NCBI GenBank assembly: GCA_039096225.1
Contig: JBBPEB010000033.1
Span: 586,501-650,500, forward strand
DNA: 64,000 bases
Direction of reading: 5' to 3'
Source of the DNA: Blastocystis sp. Blastoise
Taxonomy: Eukaryota > Sar > Bigyra > Opalinata > Blastocystidae
This document shows positions 4,796-62,665 of this stretch, piece after piece. The stretch's first letter is position 1. Each line of letters starts with the position of its first letter. The notes under the pieces were generated by a model. It made no database searches. It saw nothing but the letters and a program-made list of their open reading frames with translations, and was not told the origin of the DNA. A program made the position numbers and the translations under genes.

Positions 4796-4846
<51 letters not shown>

Positions 4847-6581
4847 AGTCATCTAGTTTATAACCACCATAGCCACTAACTCTACCATAACAGAGATGAA
4901 GACCATAATAATTACCATCATAAGTATTACGATGATCATGACCCATAAACATACCTGATACATCTCCTCTATATATATATATATATATAATAATTCTATT
5001 AAATAATGACGAATATCATAATATTAAATATATATTATTATTTTAATATATATAATAATTCTATTAAATAATGACGAATATCATAATATTAAATATATAT
5101 TATTATTTTAATATATATAATAATTCTATTAAATAATGACGAATATCATAATACTATATATTATTATTTTAATATATATAATAATTCTATTAAATAATGA
5201 CGAATATCATAATATTATATATATATATAATAATTCTATTAGATAATGACGAATATCATAATATTATATATATAAATAATAATTCTAATAAATAATGACG
5301 AATATCATAATATTATATATATATACCTCATAATCATTCTTGATACAAGTCCAGTATTTACAGAAGAACAACCGGAAAGATCATGCTTTTCTCCCTTAGT
5401 ACTAAACGATTCTCCCTATATATATATATAAACATATATATTAAAAAAAGAAAAAAAGTATATTTATAAAATAATATACTCTATATAGAAAGGTATGATA
5501 ATAATTCTATATATATATACAAAATTCCAAGCATTTAATATTTCGGGAGGTGGTATATGTAAAAATGATAATCCAGGAAGTTTTTTACCTTCTTTCTTTT
5601 CAACTTGTTGAGATTTCTGATAATACCATTCAACTGTATATAAAAATATATAATTTTTAAAATATAAAAATTAATACACTTTAAATAATAACATTTTTTT
5701 TAAGAAAAAAATCTAATTAATGAATAAGAATAAAATATAAATAATAATACTGTTAATACACTTTGAATAATAATAATATATGTATATAGATATACCGGTT
5801 TCAGGAGCAACACATCCCCAGCCTTTAACACCGCCACAATCTTTATTCTGAGAATCAAAAAACCATAAATTAAGGGCATTTGAATCATTATTTGATGCTT
5901 TTATTTGTAATAAATACTATAGAAGAAATATATATATATATATATTATATATAAAAGAATACTGTTCATTATAATAAATAGAATATAATAGTAAATATAC
6001 ATTAGAACCACCAGGTAATTCTTCAGGACCAACTTGTGAAACACTATTAGGATTTGTAATATCTAATTTCATCACTTCTTGACGTGTTAAATCTGCTTCA
6101 CCATCATGATTACCAAGAGCAAAAGCATAAGGAATATTTCTCTTTACTAAAGGCTCAGTAGCCATTTCCCAATAATGTTTATACCATCCTTGAGTCTTAT
6201 TCCACTTATATCCTATCATTATATATAAATAGTAACACAAAATAGATTAGTATTAATACAAAATATATTCATATTAAACAAAATATTTATACTATTACAA
6301 AATATATTATATTAACACAAAAATATATTATATTAACACAGAATATATTATATTAACACAAAATAACAAATACCAGAGACTAAATCACCTGTGATGGCTA
6401 CCATATCAGGTTGTTCATAATCAAGAAGCTTTCTTAAAAGAGCAAGGTTTTGAACATCCTTTTCATCTGCATCTGCAAAATGAACATCAGTCACTTGCAT
6501 GATTCTAAACTTCCCATTTTTGAAATGTAACTCTTTGCCAAAAACAAGAGCAATGAATAAAACAAACACAAGAAATCTCAT
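4537..6581 (-). CDS. Secreted calcineurin-like metallophosphoesterase (paralogue 1)
   Basis: Seven exons: 6581-6374, 6212-6001, 5916-5796, 5633-5521, 5415-5327, 4968-4846 and 4720-4537. They sum to 1050 nt (349 aa). MRFLVFVLFIALVFG is a clear signal peptide. Metallophosphatase motifs follow in order: FRIMQVTDVHFAD (D-x-H), AITGDLVSG (GD), FALGNHDGEADL (GNHD), SFLHIPPPE (H) and MFMGHDHRN (GHxH). This is the PP1/calcineurin-like fold as in secreted or vacuolar phosphoesterases such as the yeast Dcr2-type family. Substrate is unknown. The second metal-site region reads HFADAD where its neighbour has HYGDYD. The neighbour at 7242 is a divergently transcribed paralogue. Start is chosen at the ATG that opens the signal peptide; an upstream in-frame ATG at 6662 would bury it. 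Confidence 0.9.
4799..4843. repeat. (TA)n microsatellite in intron
   Basis: Roughly 22 TA units ending at the GTATAT donor of intron 6 of metallophosphoesterase 1. Confidence 0.9.
4981..5325. repeat. Intronic minisatellite, ~60-nt unit, about six copies
   Basis: The core TTCTATTAAATAATGACG recurs about six times, separated by TATATAAT and TATTATTTTAATAT spacers. The last copies carry substitutions (TTAGATAATGACG, AATAAATAATGACG). The whole array lies inside one intron of metallophosphoesterase 1. Confidence 0.9.
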
Positions 6582-9580: not shown

Positions 9581-13007
<3,427 letters not shown>

Positions 13008-14083: not shown

Positions 14084-15975
14084 TTAATTAGATTCTTCAG
14101 AATACATCTTTTCAATAGCATCATGATAATGTTGATGAACGACATTACGTTTTAATTTCATTGTAGCAGTTAATTCACCTCCACCTACAGACATATCTTT
14201 CTCTAATAAGGTCCATTTACGTATCTTTTGAGCTTGAGAAATAGCTTTTTCATTATTATATTTCTCTATAATACTATTTATATATTGACTCCAAATAGGA
14301 TCATTCATAACTTCAGTAGTAGTAACAGAAGTAGAACCAAGAGATTGAGATTGTTTAAGAGTAAGAAGAGATAATTTATTAGTAGGTTCTCCTTGTGCAT
14401 CTACTTCAGCTTTAAGAGCAATAAGACAAGATAAATACTTCTTTTTATCACCAACAACAATAATATTAGAAATTGAAGGACATAATTCAATAATACTATT
14501 TTCAATATATACAGGAGGAATATTTTCACCTCCAGCAGTAACAATAAGTTCCTTAATACGACCAGTAACATAAAAGAATCCATCTTCATCTGTTTTACCC
14601 ATATCTCCTGTATGAATCCAACCTTCAGGATCTAAAGTCTTTAAAGTCTCTTCAGGATTCTTAAGGTATCTATATATAATAGAGTTTATAAGTGAATAAT
14701 AATAATAATATATAATAATAATATAATACTAATAATAATATTAATAATAATCAGTATAATACTAATAATATATACCCCATCATAGTTAATCTACCTCTAT
14801 ATTGTATTTCATCATTATCACCTATTCTCATTTGACAACCAGGAACAGCTTTACCACAAGCACCAATCTATTTATAACATAAATATATAATTAAACTTAT
14901 TATCTTGAATAATTATAGTTAATGGAATATAGGAAGATAAAATAATAATTATGATTAAATGAATAATAATATTTACCTTCCAATCGCCAATAGAATTGTT
15001 CATAGCAACAGGAGCAGTACCTTCAGATTGTCCTAAAAGATCTAAAATAGGCATATCAAAAGAAGCAAAGAAATTAAGAGTTTCTTCAGTGACAGGAGCA
15101 GCAGAAACAACAAGAGAACGACAACTATATATACATTAACAACAAATAGGGATATCGATAGATGAATGAATTATTTAACTAATAATAATGAGTGTATAAA
15201 GAAAATAATTATAATTATAATAGTTTAAAAAAAAAAAGAATATAAAAATAATATATACCATTCAAATCCAAGTAAAGTACGAATTTTAGAAAGAACAATC
15301 TTATCATATAAAGACATAAACCAAGGAACAATTTCCTTCTTTCCTGTTTGGCGGGAAAGACAATGAACTTTAGCAGCAACACGAGCTTTTTCAGTTAAGA
15401 ACTTAACAATACCCTATAATAATAATGATAACAATATATAATGATTCTATTTCTAAATAATATATTTATCTACTATATATATAATATAAATACAGTTTTA
15501 GCAGCAACTCCTTCTTTAAGAGCTTCCATCATCTTTTCATAAACACGGGGAACAGCCACAAATACAGTAGGTTTAGCTTTACGAAGAGTCTTTGTAAGTG
15601 TACCTTTAAGGGCCATAGTATCCGCTATATAATAAGTATAATTATTTATATAAGAAAGATTAATAGAATTATTTATATAAGAAATCTATATATATAAATA
15701 TACCTAAGTACATAGTCATAGAAGATCTACAAGGAAGCATCAAATCGACATATTGAGCAGCAATATGATTCAAGGGAAGGAAAGATATCTATATATATAT
15801 ATAAATTATATTATTGATTCAAAAAAAACAGCAGCAAATAGATAAAATAATAATGAAATATTAATAATAATAATAAATACTAAACGTTCATTATCAAGAA
15901 GAGGTAGATTTTTACGAATAGCAAGTGCGTTTGTCATACAACCATCGTGAGAACACATAACACCCTTAGGTTCAC

Positions 15976-37088: not shown

Positions 37089-44725
<7,637 letters not shown>

Positions 44726-55883: not shown

Positions 55884-56095
55884 TTATTTAAAAGTAGTAC
55901 AATTAGGGAATAAACGTTTGACAGCACAATCAATAAAATTCATAGTAATATTTTGTACAATATATGGATTTTGAAGCATTTCAAACATAATAGCAATAGA
56001 TTGACTAGAAGTAGTTTCACTCATCATAAATGTATGTTTATCAATAGATAATAAATCAGGATTCTTCAAGAATAACGTATAAGCCTATTTATATA

Positions 56096-56137
<42 letters not shown>

Positions 56138-57686
56138 CTGAGATATTATTATTATCATATATACTAATTGTTTTGTATCTTTCATTTCTTGAGTCGTACG
56201 TTCAGTTCGTATTTCTTTTCTCTATATATACAAATTTCAATAAAAATTAATAAGCAGTGCCATCATAATAATTTTTATTATGATTTTTTATAATAAAATT
56301 AATTTGTTTTTTAAATAATAATAATTATTTTTTTTTGTATAATAATAATAATAATATATATATATATATACTTTATAATTTGGCCATAATTCAGTTCTTA
56401 ATACACCCAAAAGAAAAGTGTATAATGAATCATTTATATATACTTTTGTTATATATTGAGCAAAGGACAAAAAACTTCCTCTTCCCGTTATTTGTAATAC
56501 ACTATATATATAATATATAATATATAATATATAATATATATACGTTTTTCCAAAATTATAGAATTGTTTATTAATCCAATTTCCTTTTTGAATATCATAT
56601 AATTCATTATAATATGCGTATATAGCATTAGACAATAAATCAAAGTCTTTTTGTATTACTAAATGTATATATAAATATTTATATTATTATTTTAAATTCT
56701 AATTAAATCAAAATAATTAAAACATATAAATGTTATATTAATATATGTATATATATATACATTGATCATCATCATTATTATTAAGAATGCCTTCACTATA
56801 AGTTGATAATGGAGTTAATAATCCTTTACTATCTCTCTCATCCCCGCGGTTATTTATGCTATCCATACTTCCTCTACTCATATCTGTCATCAATGACGTT
56901 ATAACACTATTCTCTCTTGATCGTTCTTTAGAAGATTCTGTATATATAGAAGCTTGATGAAAACATTCATTAGAGAGATTTGCATAGAGAATTGAATCAA
57001 AAGATTTATGATTTATAATCTATTTATAGTTAGAGTTATAGGTATAGTCATAATTATAGTTATAAATTTATAACTATATTAGTTATAGATATATTTATAT
57101 TTATAGTTATAAATTTTTAGATATAGTTATAAATTTATAGTTATAAATTTATAGTTGTATTTATAAAATAATGATATAAACATAAAAAAGTAGCATTTAA
57201 AAAAGGATATAATAAAAAATAAAGTTTATTATTATATAAATAAATCTATATAAATAAATAAAATATATAAATAAATAAAAAATATATATACTTGATCATT
57301 AGCACAAAGTCGTTCAAAATATCCATTTAATTCTGTTATACGGTCATTAATAAATTTATTAGAAAATGTATTAAATAAAGTAAATGTTTTTGGAGGGAAA
57401 GGAGGAATGTAGATTCCCGTGATTTTTGATACTAATTGAGAATGAAAATGATGAAGTTTAGAAAAACGACGATATATTCTATATATATAATTTTATAATA
57501 AAATAAATAAAATCAAAATTATACTATATATATATACTCCCATTGTTTTTGTTCTATTCGTACACTTAAACAATATTCGACGAATTTCGAATCACGTGAT
57601 TCTGAGATACGGTAATTAGTTACTCGAATATATACCGACTTTTGAGTCTTTGATACTGTCCTATTGATAGTATATATATATATATA

Positions 57687-57729
<43 letters not shown>

Positions 57730-60700
57730 TATTATTATTATTATATACTTTGGAACATATACGGGTGTTGTTGTGCCTATAAATAATGATAAATAGATAA
57801 AAATATTTATTAATAAATAATTATATATATATACTAGTTTGTTCATTATTTTTTAAATTTAATTTCGATAAATATTTTGAATTTATTTGTAAATCAGCAA
57901 ATTTCACTCCATTTAAGCCAGATAAGACTGATATTAATTTATCATACTATATAATAATATTATTGTTTTTATCATAAATATAAAAGATATTTATATAGTA
58001 TAACTTTAAGAAATAATAGAATAATATAACTAGCAATAATTATTCTTATAATTCTTATAATAATTATATATATATACATATTGTTTATCTGTTAATAGCG
58101 CATGAGGTCTATAAAACGATGTAGAACAATGTAAACCATATAAAAATGTATTCAATGACTATATATAGAGAGAGATTTAGTCATATATATGATTATCATA
58201 GTATATATTTACTATATTATATAAATGAATAGAATGATTATATAAATTAAGAATTATTATTATAGTAATAATATACTAAATGGTACATAGAAAGTATTTT
58301 TATTATTTATAAAAAAAATAATATTCATAATTATAAAAATGATTAATATAAAAATGGCATTATAATAAAATAAAAAATCTGATAATGATAAAAAATCTGA
58401 TAATAATAAAAAGTTTTAATAATAAAAAGCTTTAATAATAATAATAATAATAAATACAGATGTAAAAATAAGAAGAATAAGATTTTTTTGATTTTCATTA
58501 TAGGATGTATTCTTTAAGAAATCGGATGATGGAAGAGATTTCATTCCAAAAGAATGAAATAGAACAGCGAATTGAACATCTTGAATTAATCCGTAACGCA
58601 ATAGACGTTCAAGGCCGTTCAATAATGTCACAACACAAGAATCAGTTGGTACAATCTATATATATATATAGTAATAATTATGATATACAATAATAATAAT
58701 AATATAATAATATATAATAATAATATATACTGGTTTCTTTGTATCTTTAAGAAATGTATTAATACATAGTATAATTCCTTCATTCATTTGATCTAATAAT
58801 TCCTGTCGCTTCTTATTTACTTCTTCTAAAGTATCGTCATCCAAAGAGGAAAATACAGAGTCTAAAGAATAAATATACTTTTAATACTTATCATTACAAT
58901 TATCAATATAATTATATAGAAAATTATTACATAAATATATTAAAACATTAAAAAAAAATAGAAACCTATATAGATAATAAAATAATATATAATACTTCAT
59001 ACTATTTGCTTTATTATCATTATTTTGTAATGATAATGGTGAAATCATTTCTGTTAATATATTATTGCTATCTGTAAATGATGATAATAACATGTTTCCC
59101 GTGGTTATACTGGGTTTCAAAATAGGTGATATTTCTTCTGGAATCTTTGATAGATTTGTTGAGTGACTTAATGAAGATGATGTAATAACATTATTATTAT
59201 TATTCAACGTAAACAGTTCATTATTCATAAATATAGATTTATTATTATCTTTATTATTATTATTTAAATTCTTATTTATATTTTGGCTCATCATTTTTGG
59301 TTTTGATACAGGTGTATTAATAGCTACAGGTGTAGATAATCTTATATTAGGGGGAGATACCGATGGATTTCCATAAGTAATACTTGGACTAGACGGTGTT
59401 GGTAAGGTTAAAGGTGTTAAAGAACTTTCTTGATGAGGTGAAGTAAGAGAAGAAGAAAGAGTATTAATAGAATAAGGAATAGATTGTGATTGACTAGTTA
59501 AAGTAGAAGGATAAGATGTATATATATGTTCATTAGATATATTTGTAGGTATACTAATCGTATTATTAGTAGATAATGAAGATAAAGACATATCTGTATT
59601 AAGGGAAAGAAGAGTATTATGGTTATAGGATTGAATAGGAATAGGTAAAGAAGAAGGATAAGGAGATATATTATTATTATTATTATTATTATTCATATTA
59701 TTTTTATTATTATTAGTCATATTATTACTATTCATCGAAGACTGTATATTTTCATTATTTATATTATTGCTGATAATAGCAACAGAAAGTGCTGATTTTC
59801 CTTTATTACGAGAACTTAAATCTCTATTTTGAACTTTTTTATTAGATATAGATTGTTTTGAATTATTATTTAAATTCTGTGGAATTTCTTCATTTTCAGA
59901 AGTACTTATTATTGATGATAAAGTTACATTACTTAATGGTAAATTATTATCATTATTATTATTATTAACAATATTATTATTATTATTAGCGATATTACTA
60001 TTATTATCATTATCAATATCTATATTATTTGTTTGAGATAATGTGTTATATTTATTGTCTTTCATAAATTCATAATTATGAATAGAAGGATCAGAATATA
60101 TTATATTATTATCCATACTTAATAAAGAAATGTCCTCATTATCAACATATGTGGTGTCATCACAATCTGAAAATGTATCCATAGAATCAGGTATATAATG
60201 ATTATCTATATTTATAGTAATAATAAGATAATTATATATATATAATCAATTTCTCTATGATAAAAACATAAAAGAAAAAAAAACTTTTATTTAAAATAAA
60301 AAAAAAAGGAATGAATAAAAATAATTATATATATATATATACTATTTTGTTCTTCTAATCCCCATTGCATCATTTCTGCCGTACGCGTCATATCTTCATA
60401 GATACGAACTCCCCGGATCACGTGATGTCTATATTTTTTAATAATATCAATTAAACAATTCGCAGGCTTCACATCTTCTAAATATATTATTATTATTAAG
60501 ATTATTATTGGTAAAAATATAATAATAATATTTATTATTATGATTATTATTATTTCTCTTATTGTATATTATTATATAAAATTGTAAGTATATATATAAA
60601 TATAGCAATAACTATATATATATATACCTCCAAAATACATAGAAGATCCTTTTTCTATTTTTGAATGATAAACTGGTTTATTTTGTTGATTTGATTGATA

Positions 60701-62665
60701 TTTATATTGATCCATTAAAGAGGTATAGGACAGGAAGAAGGTTGACGGTTCAGGGCTATTCCCACGTAATAAGAAACAACCAAATTCCATCGATTTTAAG
60801 ATGATTTCAGCTTGTTCTCGAGAAAGATAAGGCTTAAAATATTGAAGAGCAATATCATTTGTAACAGAATTCTATGTGAATTGTAGTTATAATAAAGAAT
60901 AGATTATTCATAATAATAATAATTATTATTATAGTATTTATAATCATAATAATAAACAATATAATAATAATAAACAATATAATAATTATAATAATAATAA
61001 TATATACTTTTGGTACATATTGTTTATCGATATCTTTTTCTTTATTAGTTACCCATTCGTGTAATGTCTGTTCAGTATATATAACAGTAATAAATTGATT
61101 AATAGTATCAGGTGTAATAGATTCTAAGATATTTGCAAAGATACTATGCGTTAAAATCTCCGTAAAAAAAGTTAACGTACAAATAGACATTGATTCTGTC
61201 GAAGGTATTAATTCACGTACAATATTTCTAGATAACTATATATATGTATAATTATATATGATTTATTCTTAATGAAATAGATAGAATAAAATTAATATAT
61301 ATATGATTATAGAATAAAATAGATATAAATTCAATAGATATTATATATATATAATACACAGAAAACAATTCTAAAAAAAACAACAAAAATAATATAATTA
61401 TTCCACAATAAGTCTATGAATAAATCTATATACAGTTCTTAAGAATTCGATTTGTAATTCATTATCTAGCATACTATCATGAAAAGCACTGGTATGAGAA
61501 AACTTTTCAAAAATCTTTTTTTGATGATGTTTATTAATCAATAGATCATTAGACTCCTGAAATAACTATATATATATATATATAAAATGACTAATAAAAA
61601 AGTATATTAAATTATATATATTATTATATCCTTATAAACTAAATATATATAACTAATATATATATATATAGGATCATAAATAATAATAAAATAATGAAAT
61701 CTATATAATTATAAATATATATTTATATAATTAAAATTGATATATTAAATATTAATATATATATATACTTCAGGTTGTTTATTTCTAAGTTCTTTTGTAG
61801 CAGTTTTATAATAATATAATGATTCACTTAAACAATTAAAGAAATCAGCAATTAAACCAATTATAATTGGTTTTTGAGCAATTTTCTTTGTTATACTTCC
61901 AGTAGTATTTAAAAGTATATTCTTTATCGTTAATGGAAATGCAGATTCTCCACCTATCTTCTCTATATATATATTATTATTATTATATTTATTATTATTA
62001 CTATTATTATTATTATAATATTAATATTTATTATTAACATTATAATTATTATCTAAGACAATAATATTTATTATTATTATACAACGTATATAATTATATA
62101 TTTACCTTGATACCAACTTTGAATATAATCTCTCATAATAAGTGTAAGTATTTGATCTATAATAACATATATATATATAATTATTTATAATATTACTTTT
62201 ATAAAAAGAAAAAGAGAAAACTTTTAAAAATATACTTAATTCCACTGCAACTGATTGTGATAATTGATATTTCTTAATATAATCCTGAATAGGATCTGAA
62301 TCGTATGGACTTTCTTCTTTTTTAGTTTTCATGACTTCTTCAAATACTTCCTTGTGAATCTCACGTTTCTTATTTTCTACTTCTATTCTATCAGAGCTAC
62401 AAAGATATATAATTATTTCACGAATGAAGAAGGCAGAAAGTAAGAAACAAATGAAGTTTATCGAACAGTACAACATGTAACCTATAAATGGACACAAGTT
62501 TTTTACTAAATACAGCAGACACTTCAGTAGTAAATACCCAAAATAGGGTATATAGTATAAATAATGTGCAATAGTAGAGTGATTCATCTTAAAACAATAT
62601 AAAAACATTTCTAAAGCTACACAAAGATTCCCATGAATATCTTGTTGATGACAGAGAAACAACAA
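55884..62665 (-). CDS. Sorting nexin with PXA, SH2, RUN, PX and Nexin_C domains
   Basis: About 20 exons across 6.8 kb, joined in frame by GTATAT...TATAG introns; nineteen junctions were traced. Order from the N-terminus: a membrane hairpin (~62590-62400; PYFGYLLLKCLLYLVKNL and INFICFLLSAFFI); PXA domain (~62350-61010; LTLIMRDYIQSWY, FLRT, SRNIVRELIPS); SH2-like domain (~60850-60400; EFGCFLLRGNSPEPSTFFLS with the betaB5 Arg, then VYHSKIEK and ANCLIDIIKKYR); ~400 Ser/Asn-rich residues (60205-59003); RUN-like domain (58861-57835; VTLLNGLERLLRYGL, TSFYRPHALLTDKQYDKL); PX domain (57660-57292; VYIRVTNYRI, EIYRRFSKLHHFHSQL, PPFPPKTF); Nexin_C (56658-55884). PXA-PX-Nexin_C is the SNX13/14/25 layout of ER/endosome contact proteins. 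SH2 occupies the place where SNX13/14/25 carry RGS. Start could also be the internal ATG at 62587. Confidence 0.87.
60400..60871 (-). other. SH2-like domain within the sorting nexin
   Basis: Spread over two exons (60871-60628 and 60477-60343). LSREQAEIILKSMEFGCFLL is helix A plus strand B, with FLLRGN carrying the phosphotyrosine-binding Arg in place of the usual FLVRES. FFLSYTS is strand C, YHSKIEK gives the strand D His and basic residues, and ANCLIDIIKKYR is helix B. About 15 Gln/Asn-rich residues are inserted in the CD loop. Confidence 0.75.

Follow-up and report, generated by a model that had tools for sequence, protein, structure and literature searches.

The sorting nexins SNX13, SNX14 and SNX25, yeast Mdm1 and fly Snazarus share a membrane anchor and a PXA ... 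PX - PXC order with a central RGS domain, and proteins of this class link the endoplasmic reticulum (ER), lipid droplets and endolysosomes (PMC8864675). The RGS domain is not universal. Human SNX19 and other proteins, including some fungal members, have the PXA, PX and PXC domains and the N-terminal membrane anchor without it, and the passages of that account used here mention neither an SH2 nor a RUN-like part for them (PMC8864675). Here we describe a gene in a stretch of 64,000 nucleotides (the window) of Blastocystis sp. Blastoise, contig JBBPEB010000033.1, positions 586,501 to 650,500 of the forward strand. The gene lies on the minus strand of the window at 55884..62608, and where the RGS-bearing relatives carry their central RGS domain its product has an SH2 domain and a RUN-like stretch, with no RGS listed. 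With a probability of roughly 0.6, we read this product as an ER-anchored PXA-PX-PXC sorting nexin, similar to SNX19 in lacking RGS, that has an SH2 domain built in just after PXA. The domain order, the SH2 pocket Arg and His that align to SHP2, and the PX basic residues RRF...PPK...R in common with CISK are the parts of this reading that come directly from the sequence.

Spliced by hand, the gene has 20 exons and encodes 1,390 amino acids in the order hydrophobic anchor, PXA, SH2, Asn- and Ser-rich linker, RUN-like stretch, PX, short linker and Nexin_C (PXC). All 19 introns are of the form GTA...AG with matching phases, and the product has a single terminal stop. Most introns start with GTATAT and end with ATAG; they are 42-299 bp long with 5-14% guanine plus cytosine (GC), i.e. 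a GC fraction of 0.05-0.14 against 0.20-0.43 across the 20 exons. The NCBI counterpart, hypothetical protein WA158_005630 (1,346 amino acids, Blastocystis sp. Blastoise), spans the same exons and differs from our product only in lacking 47 residues of exon 1 and in carrying an additional LFQ at intron 3. These three residues arise from an acceptor 9 bases before ours, and both acceptors are kept as alternatives. For intron 4 the donor GTATAT was preferred to GTGGAA, since it restores the frame of PXA and agrees with NCBI. The preliminary description of this DNA had proposed a single spliced gene with PXA, SH2, PX and Nexin_C at this place, and the open frame over 20 exons and the agreement of the NCBI model bear this out. 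Its start at 62665 has to be corrected to 62608, the start in both models. The Blastocystis poly(A) motif TGTTTGTT occurs at 8 places in the window; the scan placed none near the end of the gene or in intron 7, and the motif does not help to define where the gene ends.

Could the locus hold two genes instead, one for a PXA-SH2 protein ending within exon 7 or beyond it, the other for a RUN-like-PX-Nexin_C protein that starts at a Met in exon 8? Reading through from exon 7 does run into a stop 18 codons further on, and an in-frame Met comes early in exon 8. However, intron 7 has a GTATAT..ATAG pair like the other introns and keeps the frame, and exons 7 and 8 are also joined in the NCBI model. 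The 137 bases of the gap have a GC of 0.10, which is intron-like, whereas the flanking intergenic sequences have 0.22 and 0.219. This comparison of composition also served as the check on a split between the PXA-SH2 and RUN-PX parts, which the preliminary description had named as the arrangement that would speak against it. Furthermore, predictions for the known class have PXA and PXC folding together (PMC8864675), which places them in one protein. We consider two genes very improbable. The sequence evidence points to a real single gene that adds a new combination of domains to a known class; the gene itself is well supported, and the SH2 sequence fairly well.

The class assignment rests on three of the seven families that Pfam reports for the whole protein. 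PXA (PF02194; 61086..62257, minus strand, residues 118-297, exons 1-5) scores 82.7 bits with an E-value (E) of 5.1e-23 and a cut-off of 27 bits. PX (PF00787; 56993..57554, minus strand, residues 1070-1146 by Pfam, exons 14-16) scores 55.3 bits (E 9.6e-15, cut-off 21.6), and Nexin_C (PF08628; 55962..56578, minus strand, residues 1251-1365, exons 17-20) scores 31.8 bits (E 2e-7, cut-off 22.3). With all three above their cut-offs, the membership of the PXA, PX and Nexin_C class claimed earlier holds. The other four families, SH2, BAR_3, RUN and YIF1, fall below theirs (21, 31.7, 22 and 27.6 bits, respectively). The BAR_3 match (18.8 bits) starts in the low-complexity linker and was ignored, as was the YIF1 match (8.1 bits). 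A search of NCBIfam with WA158_005630 gave only two unrelated weak matches, both far below cut-offs.

The PX domain has 8 distinct relatives in the PDB at E<=0.001, including CISK/SGK3, SNX25, SNX16 and KIF16B. The best is a designed CISK PX (E 1.1e-7), followed by SNX25. The alignment with CISK keeps the basic residues RRF/RRY, PPK and a later Arg, which we take to be the lipid-touching residues of PX domains that bind phosphatidylinositol 3-phosphate (PI3P). SNX25, a relative from the same class, lacks PPK in its alignment, so the choice of lipid is not readable from the class. Profile searches of the whole genome with PXA, RUN and Nexin_C gave no match, this gene included, nor did 14 control genomes yield any; we think that the domains are split by exons and that these searches are uninformative either way. 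A PX exon on contig 32 is 29% identical (E 0.019), and by eye its frame looks like another kind of sorting nexin.

The SH2 domain (PF00017; 60437..60841, minus strand, residues 334-418, exons 6 and 7), cut out with its flanks, scores 25.2 bits (E 1.7e-5, cut-off 21) over profile positions 1-77 of 77. A six-frame search with PF00017 over the whole 33.3-Mb genome gave one match, exon 6 of this gene, at 24.1 bits (E 0.0011). This search may miss divergent SH2 domains and domains split by introns, and it is only within its limits that this is the only canonical SH2 of the genome; Spt6 is presumably a place where a divergent SH2, possibly unseen by the search, would be expected. No SH2 match at E<=1 was found for any of 5 reversed or shuffled copies, one of which had a weak, unrelated match to AP1AR (14 bits). 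By sequence, the SH2 piece matches 68 distinct PDB sequences at E<=10, the best being SHP2 (E 0.00087), and GADS, tensin-like, Crk, VAV2 and CSK are also found among the 60 best of the 68. When the piece is aligned with SHP2, FLLR, which contains the phosphate-binding Arg of strand B, coincides with FLVR, and VYHSKI shares its His with VTHVMI. Two further residues, the LSREQAE Arg and the HSKI Lys, presumably stand at positions that contact phosphate in Src. The domain may recognise phosphotyrosine.

Several results weigh against our reading. In the context of the whole 1,390-residue protein the SH2 match drops to 20.2 bits, just below the cut-off of 21, so that the SH2 with an FLLR Arg between PXA and PX that was first proposed stands on the cut piece and on the Arg aligned to SHP2 but not on the whole-protein score. 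With the whole of WA158_005630 as query the best PDB SH2 match is GADS, at only E 0.041, and the Pfam list for this protein in the searched collection has neither SH2 nor RUN. A model of exon 6 alone is helical (predicted local distance difference test 55.8, predicted template modelling score 0.32), although it carries little weight, being a fold of half a domain from a single sequence without an alignment. The weak score and the helical model are also what favours the view that the resemblance to SH2 arose by chance and that the interval is just a diverged helical segment, possibly what is left of an RGS. This we regard as very improbable, because the match is the sole one in the genome, aligns with the full length of the profile and is not reproduced by any of the scrambled controls; the matches to SH2 sequences in the PDB likewise speak against it. 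As for a decayed RGS, the Pfam search of the protein lists none at E<=10, though HMMER filters drop most matches above E of about 0.1.

Three further points on the same side concern the anchor, the kinases and the relatives. The anchor is spliced out as an intron in the NCBI model. No classical tyrosine-kinase loop was found in the genome searches described below, which weakens a phosphotyrosine reading, although the genome does have exons similar to protein tyrosine phosphatases. Finally, no orthologue was found: homology searches of 5.77 billion proteins (E<=0.001, 10 and 10, with 569, 1,845 and 7,359 candidates, sharing of 5-residue words being needed) returned solely the gene's own protein. 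Nothing therefore shows selection keeping the SH2 domain beyond this one genome. That said, Blastocystis proteins diverge fast, with 59-61% median identity between subtypes (PMC5608401), and because the searches needed shared words the absence of an orthologue is not established.

The anchor itself is a hydrophobic stretch at 62396..62536 on the minus strand (codons 25-71, 47 residues), a probable membrane anchor that is absent from WA158_005630. The NCBI model excises the corresponding 141 bases (62537-62397). Their GC of 0.30 is exon-like, they are open in frame, and the 47 residues are the most hydrophobic part of the protein, with a best 19-residue Kyte-Doolittle mean of 2.2. An N-terminal hydrophobic ER anchor is a feature of this class of sorting nexins (PMC8864675). 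Since the excised stretch has exon-like GC, it is probably coding and the ER anchor of the class is probably present; WA158_005630 would then be a probable case of mis-annotation at the membrane anchor.

It had been suggested that the SH2 domain takes the position of RGS. It does lie between PXA and PX, but it abuts PXA, and between it and PX come a low-complexity linker of 401 residues with 91 Asn and 69 Ser (59003..60205, minus strand, exon 8) and then the RUN-like stretch. The RUN-like stretch, not SH2, adjoins PX. Since SNX19 and some fungal members of the class do without RGS (PMC8864675), a replacement of RGS by SH2 is not shown, and 'SH2 in place of RGS' is a description of order. Elsewhere in the genome there are two RGS matches at E<=10, one of them above the cut-off (locus L046 on contig 24, about 4839-5183). 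No PXA- or PX-like frames were seen by eye in the open reading frames around the latter, where no profile was run, and this RGS-like frame seems separate from PXA or PX frames.

The RUN-like stretch (PF02759; 57893..58861, minus strand, about residues 851-1005, exons 9-12) is a more tentative call, and we use 'RUN-like' only. Its profile match covers just the C-terminal third, residues 965-1004 (58146-57896), and every score is below the cut-off of 22: 17.0 bits in the whole protein, 21.0 on a cut piece (profile positions 81-126 of 131) and 21.6 with tighter ends (positions 80-126 of 131). None of 3 reversed or shuffled pieces matched anything, and neither of the 2 weak PDB matches to the piece is a RUN structure. 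The added RUN domain of the preliminary description is thus kept as a RUN-like match in the PXA-PX interval, under the cut-off and confined to the last third of the profile. If the call holds, a RUN-type part before PX would be a likeness to SNX29, which we take to be RUN plus PX; to our knowledge SNX29 has no PXA, PXC or SH2, unlike the Blastocystis protein.

Which kinase could supply a phosphate for the SH2 domain? The genome has at least 135 matches to the protein kinase family PF07714, counted by exon. By pattern, a catalytic loop was found in 24 of the best 30 of these 135, and all 24 have a Lys at the position of the tyrosine-kinase Ala or Arg; a classical tyrosine-kinase loop is found in none of them. 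The patterns HRD(L/F)xAxN and HRDIxAxN occur genome-wide at four places (HRDLKADN, HRDFLAAN, HRDIKASN and HRDIPAEN), of which none is HRD(L/I)AARN or HRDLRAAN, though loops cut by introns would be missed. By eye, none of the 9 open reading frames of at least 60 residues at the HRDFLAAN place is kinase-like. The loops HRDLKTLN and HRDLKSAN, which we take to be of the tyrosine kinase-like (TKL) type, are present among the kinase matches. Exons similar to protein tyrosine phosphatases gave 4 matches at E<=10, 2 of them above the cut-off. Phytophthora infestans, also a stramenopile with SH2 proteins (four plausible ones), differs in having two HRD(I/L)AARN kinases (PMC3019232), a type that was not found in the Blastocystis genome by these searches. 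A BRAF homologue of Blastocystis hominis has been mentioned (PMC5974376).

These results bear on a second alternative, that the SH2 fold is genuine yet is no phosphotyrosine reader, serving instead for weak binding of phosphoserine or phosphothreonine, as in Spt6, or as a structural spacer. The absence of an HRD(L/I)AARN-type loop from the four pattern places and the 24 loop loci favours it, and the Spt6 SH2 is known to bind a Ser-phosphorylated CTD (PMC3507883). It is at odds with the retained pocket Arg and His and with the presumed TKL-like loops, and Dictyostelium offers a case of SH2 proteins that a TKL kinase can serve (PMC4758236). We hold this alternative to be unlikely, yet a good deal more credible than either a chance match or two genes.

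To return to the RGS-less nexin with a built-in SH2 domain, a mechanism can be proposed. The N-terminal hydrophobic stretch would anchor the protein in the ER, PXA and PXC would fold together to enclose a lipid cavity, in line with predictions for relatives in animals and yeast, and PX would dock on PI3P membranes. By binding a phosphorylated partner, SH2 could let phosphorylation set or clear an organelle contact or its lipid traffic. With no catalytic loop of the classical tyrosine-kinase type found, the phosphate would most likely come from a TKL or dual-specificity kinase. As a weak suggestion, the RUN-like helices could be a binding site for a small GTPase. Taken to its full extent, the protein would be a phosphotyrosine-gated ER lipid-transfer tether, with one ER-endosome contact under the control of phosphotyrosine made by TKL kinases and perhaps also of a small GTPase; this extended proposal is speculative and, in our estimation, doubtful.

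The domain combination had been put forward as apparently undescribed, and no account of it was found in the open literature, where searches covered a PXA-PX-PXC nexin with SH2 and a sorting nexin combined with SH2, PX and RUN; subscription papers were outside their scope. Searching the same literature for a sorting nexin with an SH2 domain and PXA gave solely work on Sam68 and SH3 proteins. 'SH2' is absent from the main text of a review of the SNX-PXA-RGS-PXC proteins (PMC7956473), and 'tyrosine', 'SH2' and 'sorting nexin' are absent from the main text of the Blastocystis ST1 genome paper (PMC5608401).

The surroundings of the gene have features of their own. The Blastoise genome (33.3 Mb in 34 contigs), the window (GC 0.22, or 22%) and the introns of this gene (42-299 bp) are unlike what is reported for subtypes ST1, ST4 and ST7, with genomes of 13-19 Mb, 40-55% GC and short introns with a mode of 30 bp (PMC5608401). 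On the minus strand of the window, 9581-10189 and 14084-14728 are C-terminal exons of AMP-binding (acyl-CoA synthetase-like) enzymes (PF23562) that are almost identical to each other, by eye a recent tandem duplication. At 513-2358, on the same strand, a ubiquitin-conjugating-like part appears by eye to be followed by a kinase-like part; three frames searched with Pfam had no match at E<=0.01. An open frame of 1,738 residues on the plus strand (39222-44438) is very rich in Asn, Ser and Pro and has no Pfam match at E<=0.01.

If the SH2-bearing nexin is real, the interval from PXA to PX is a slot for signal-reading modules of different kinds, and the protein would offer a simple system for an SH2 domain working without classical tyrosine kinases. 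Should the phosphotyrosine-gated tether also be true, this would be a phosphotyrosine circuit whose main reader is a membrane-contact protein, in a stramenopile genome where no classical tyrosine kinase was found. A gut protist nexin with SH2 between its lipid-handling parts may in this way tie organelle contacts to phosphorylation signals.

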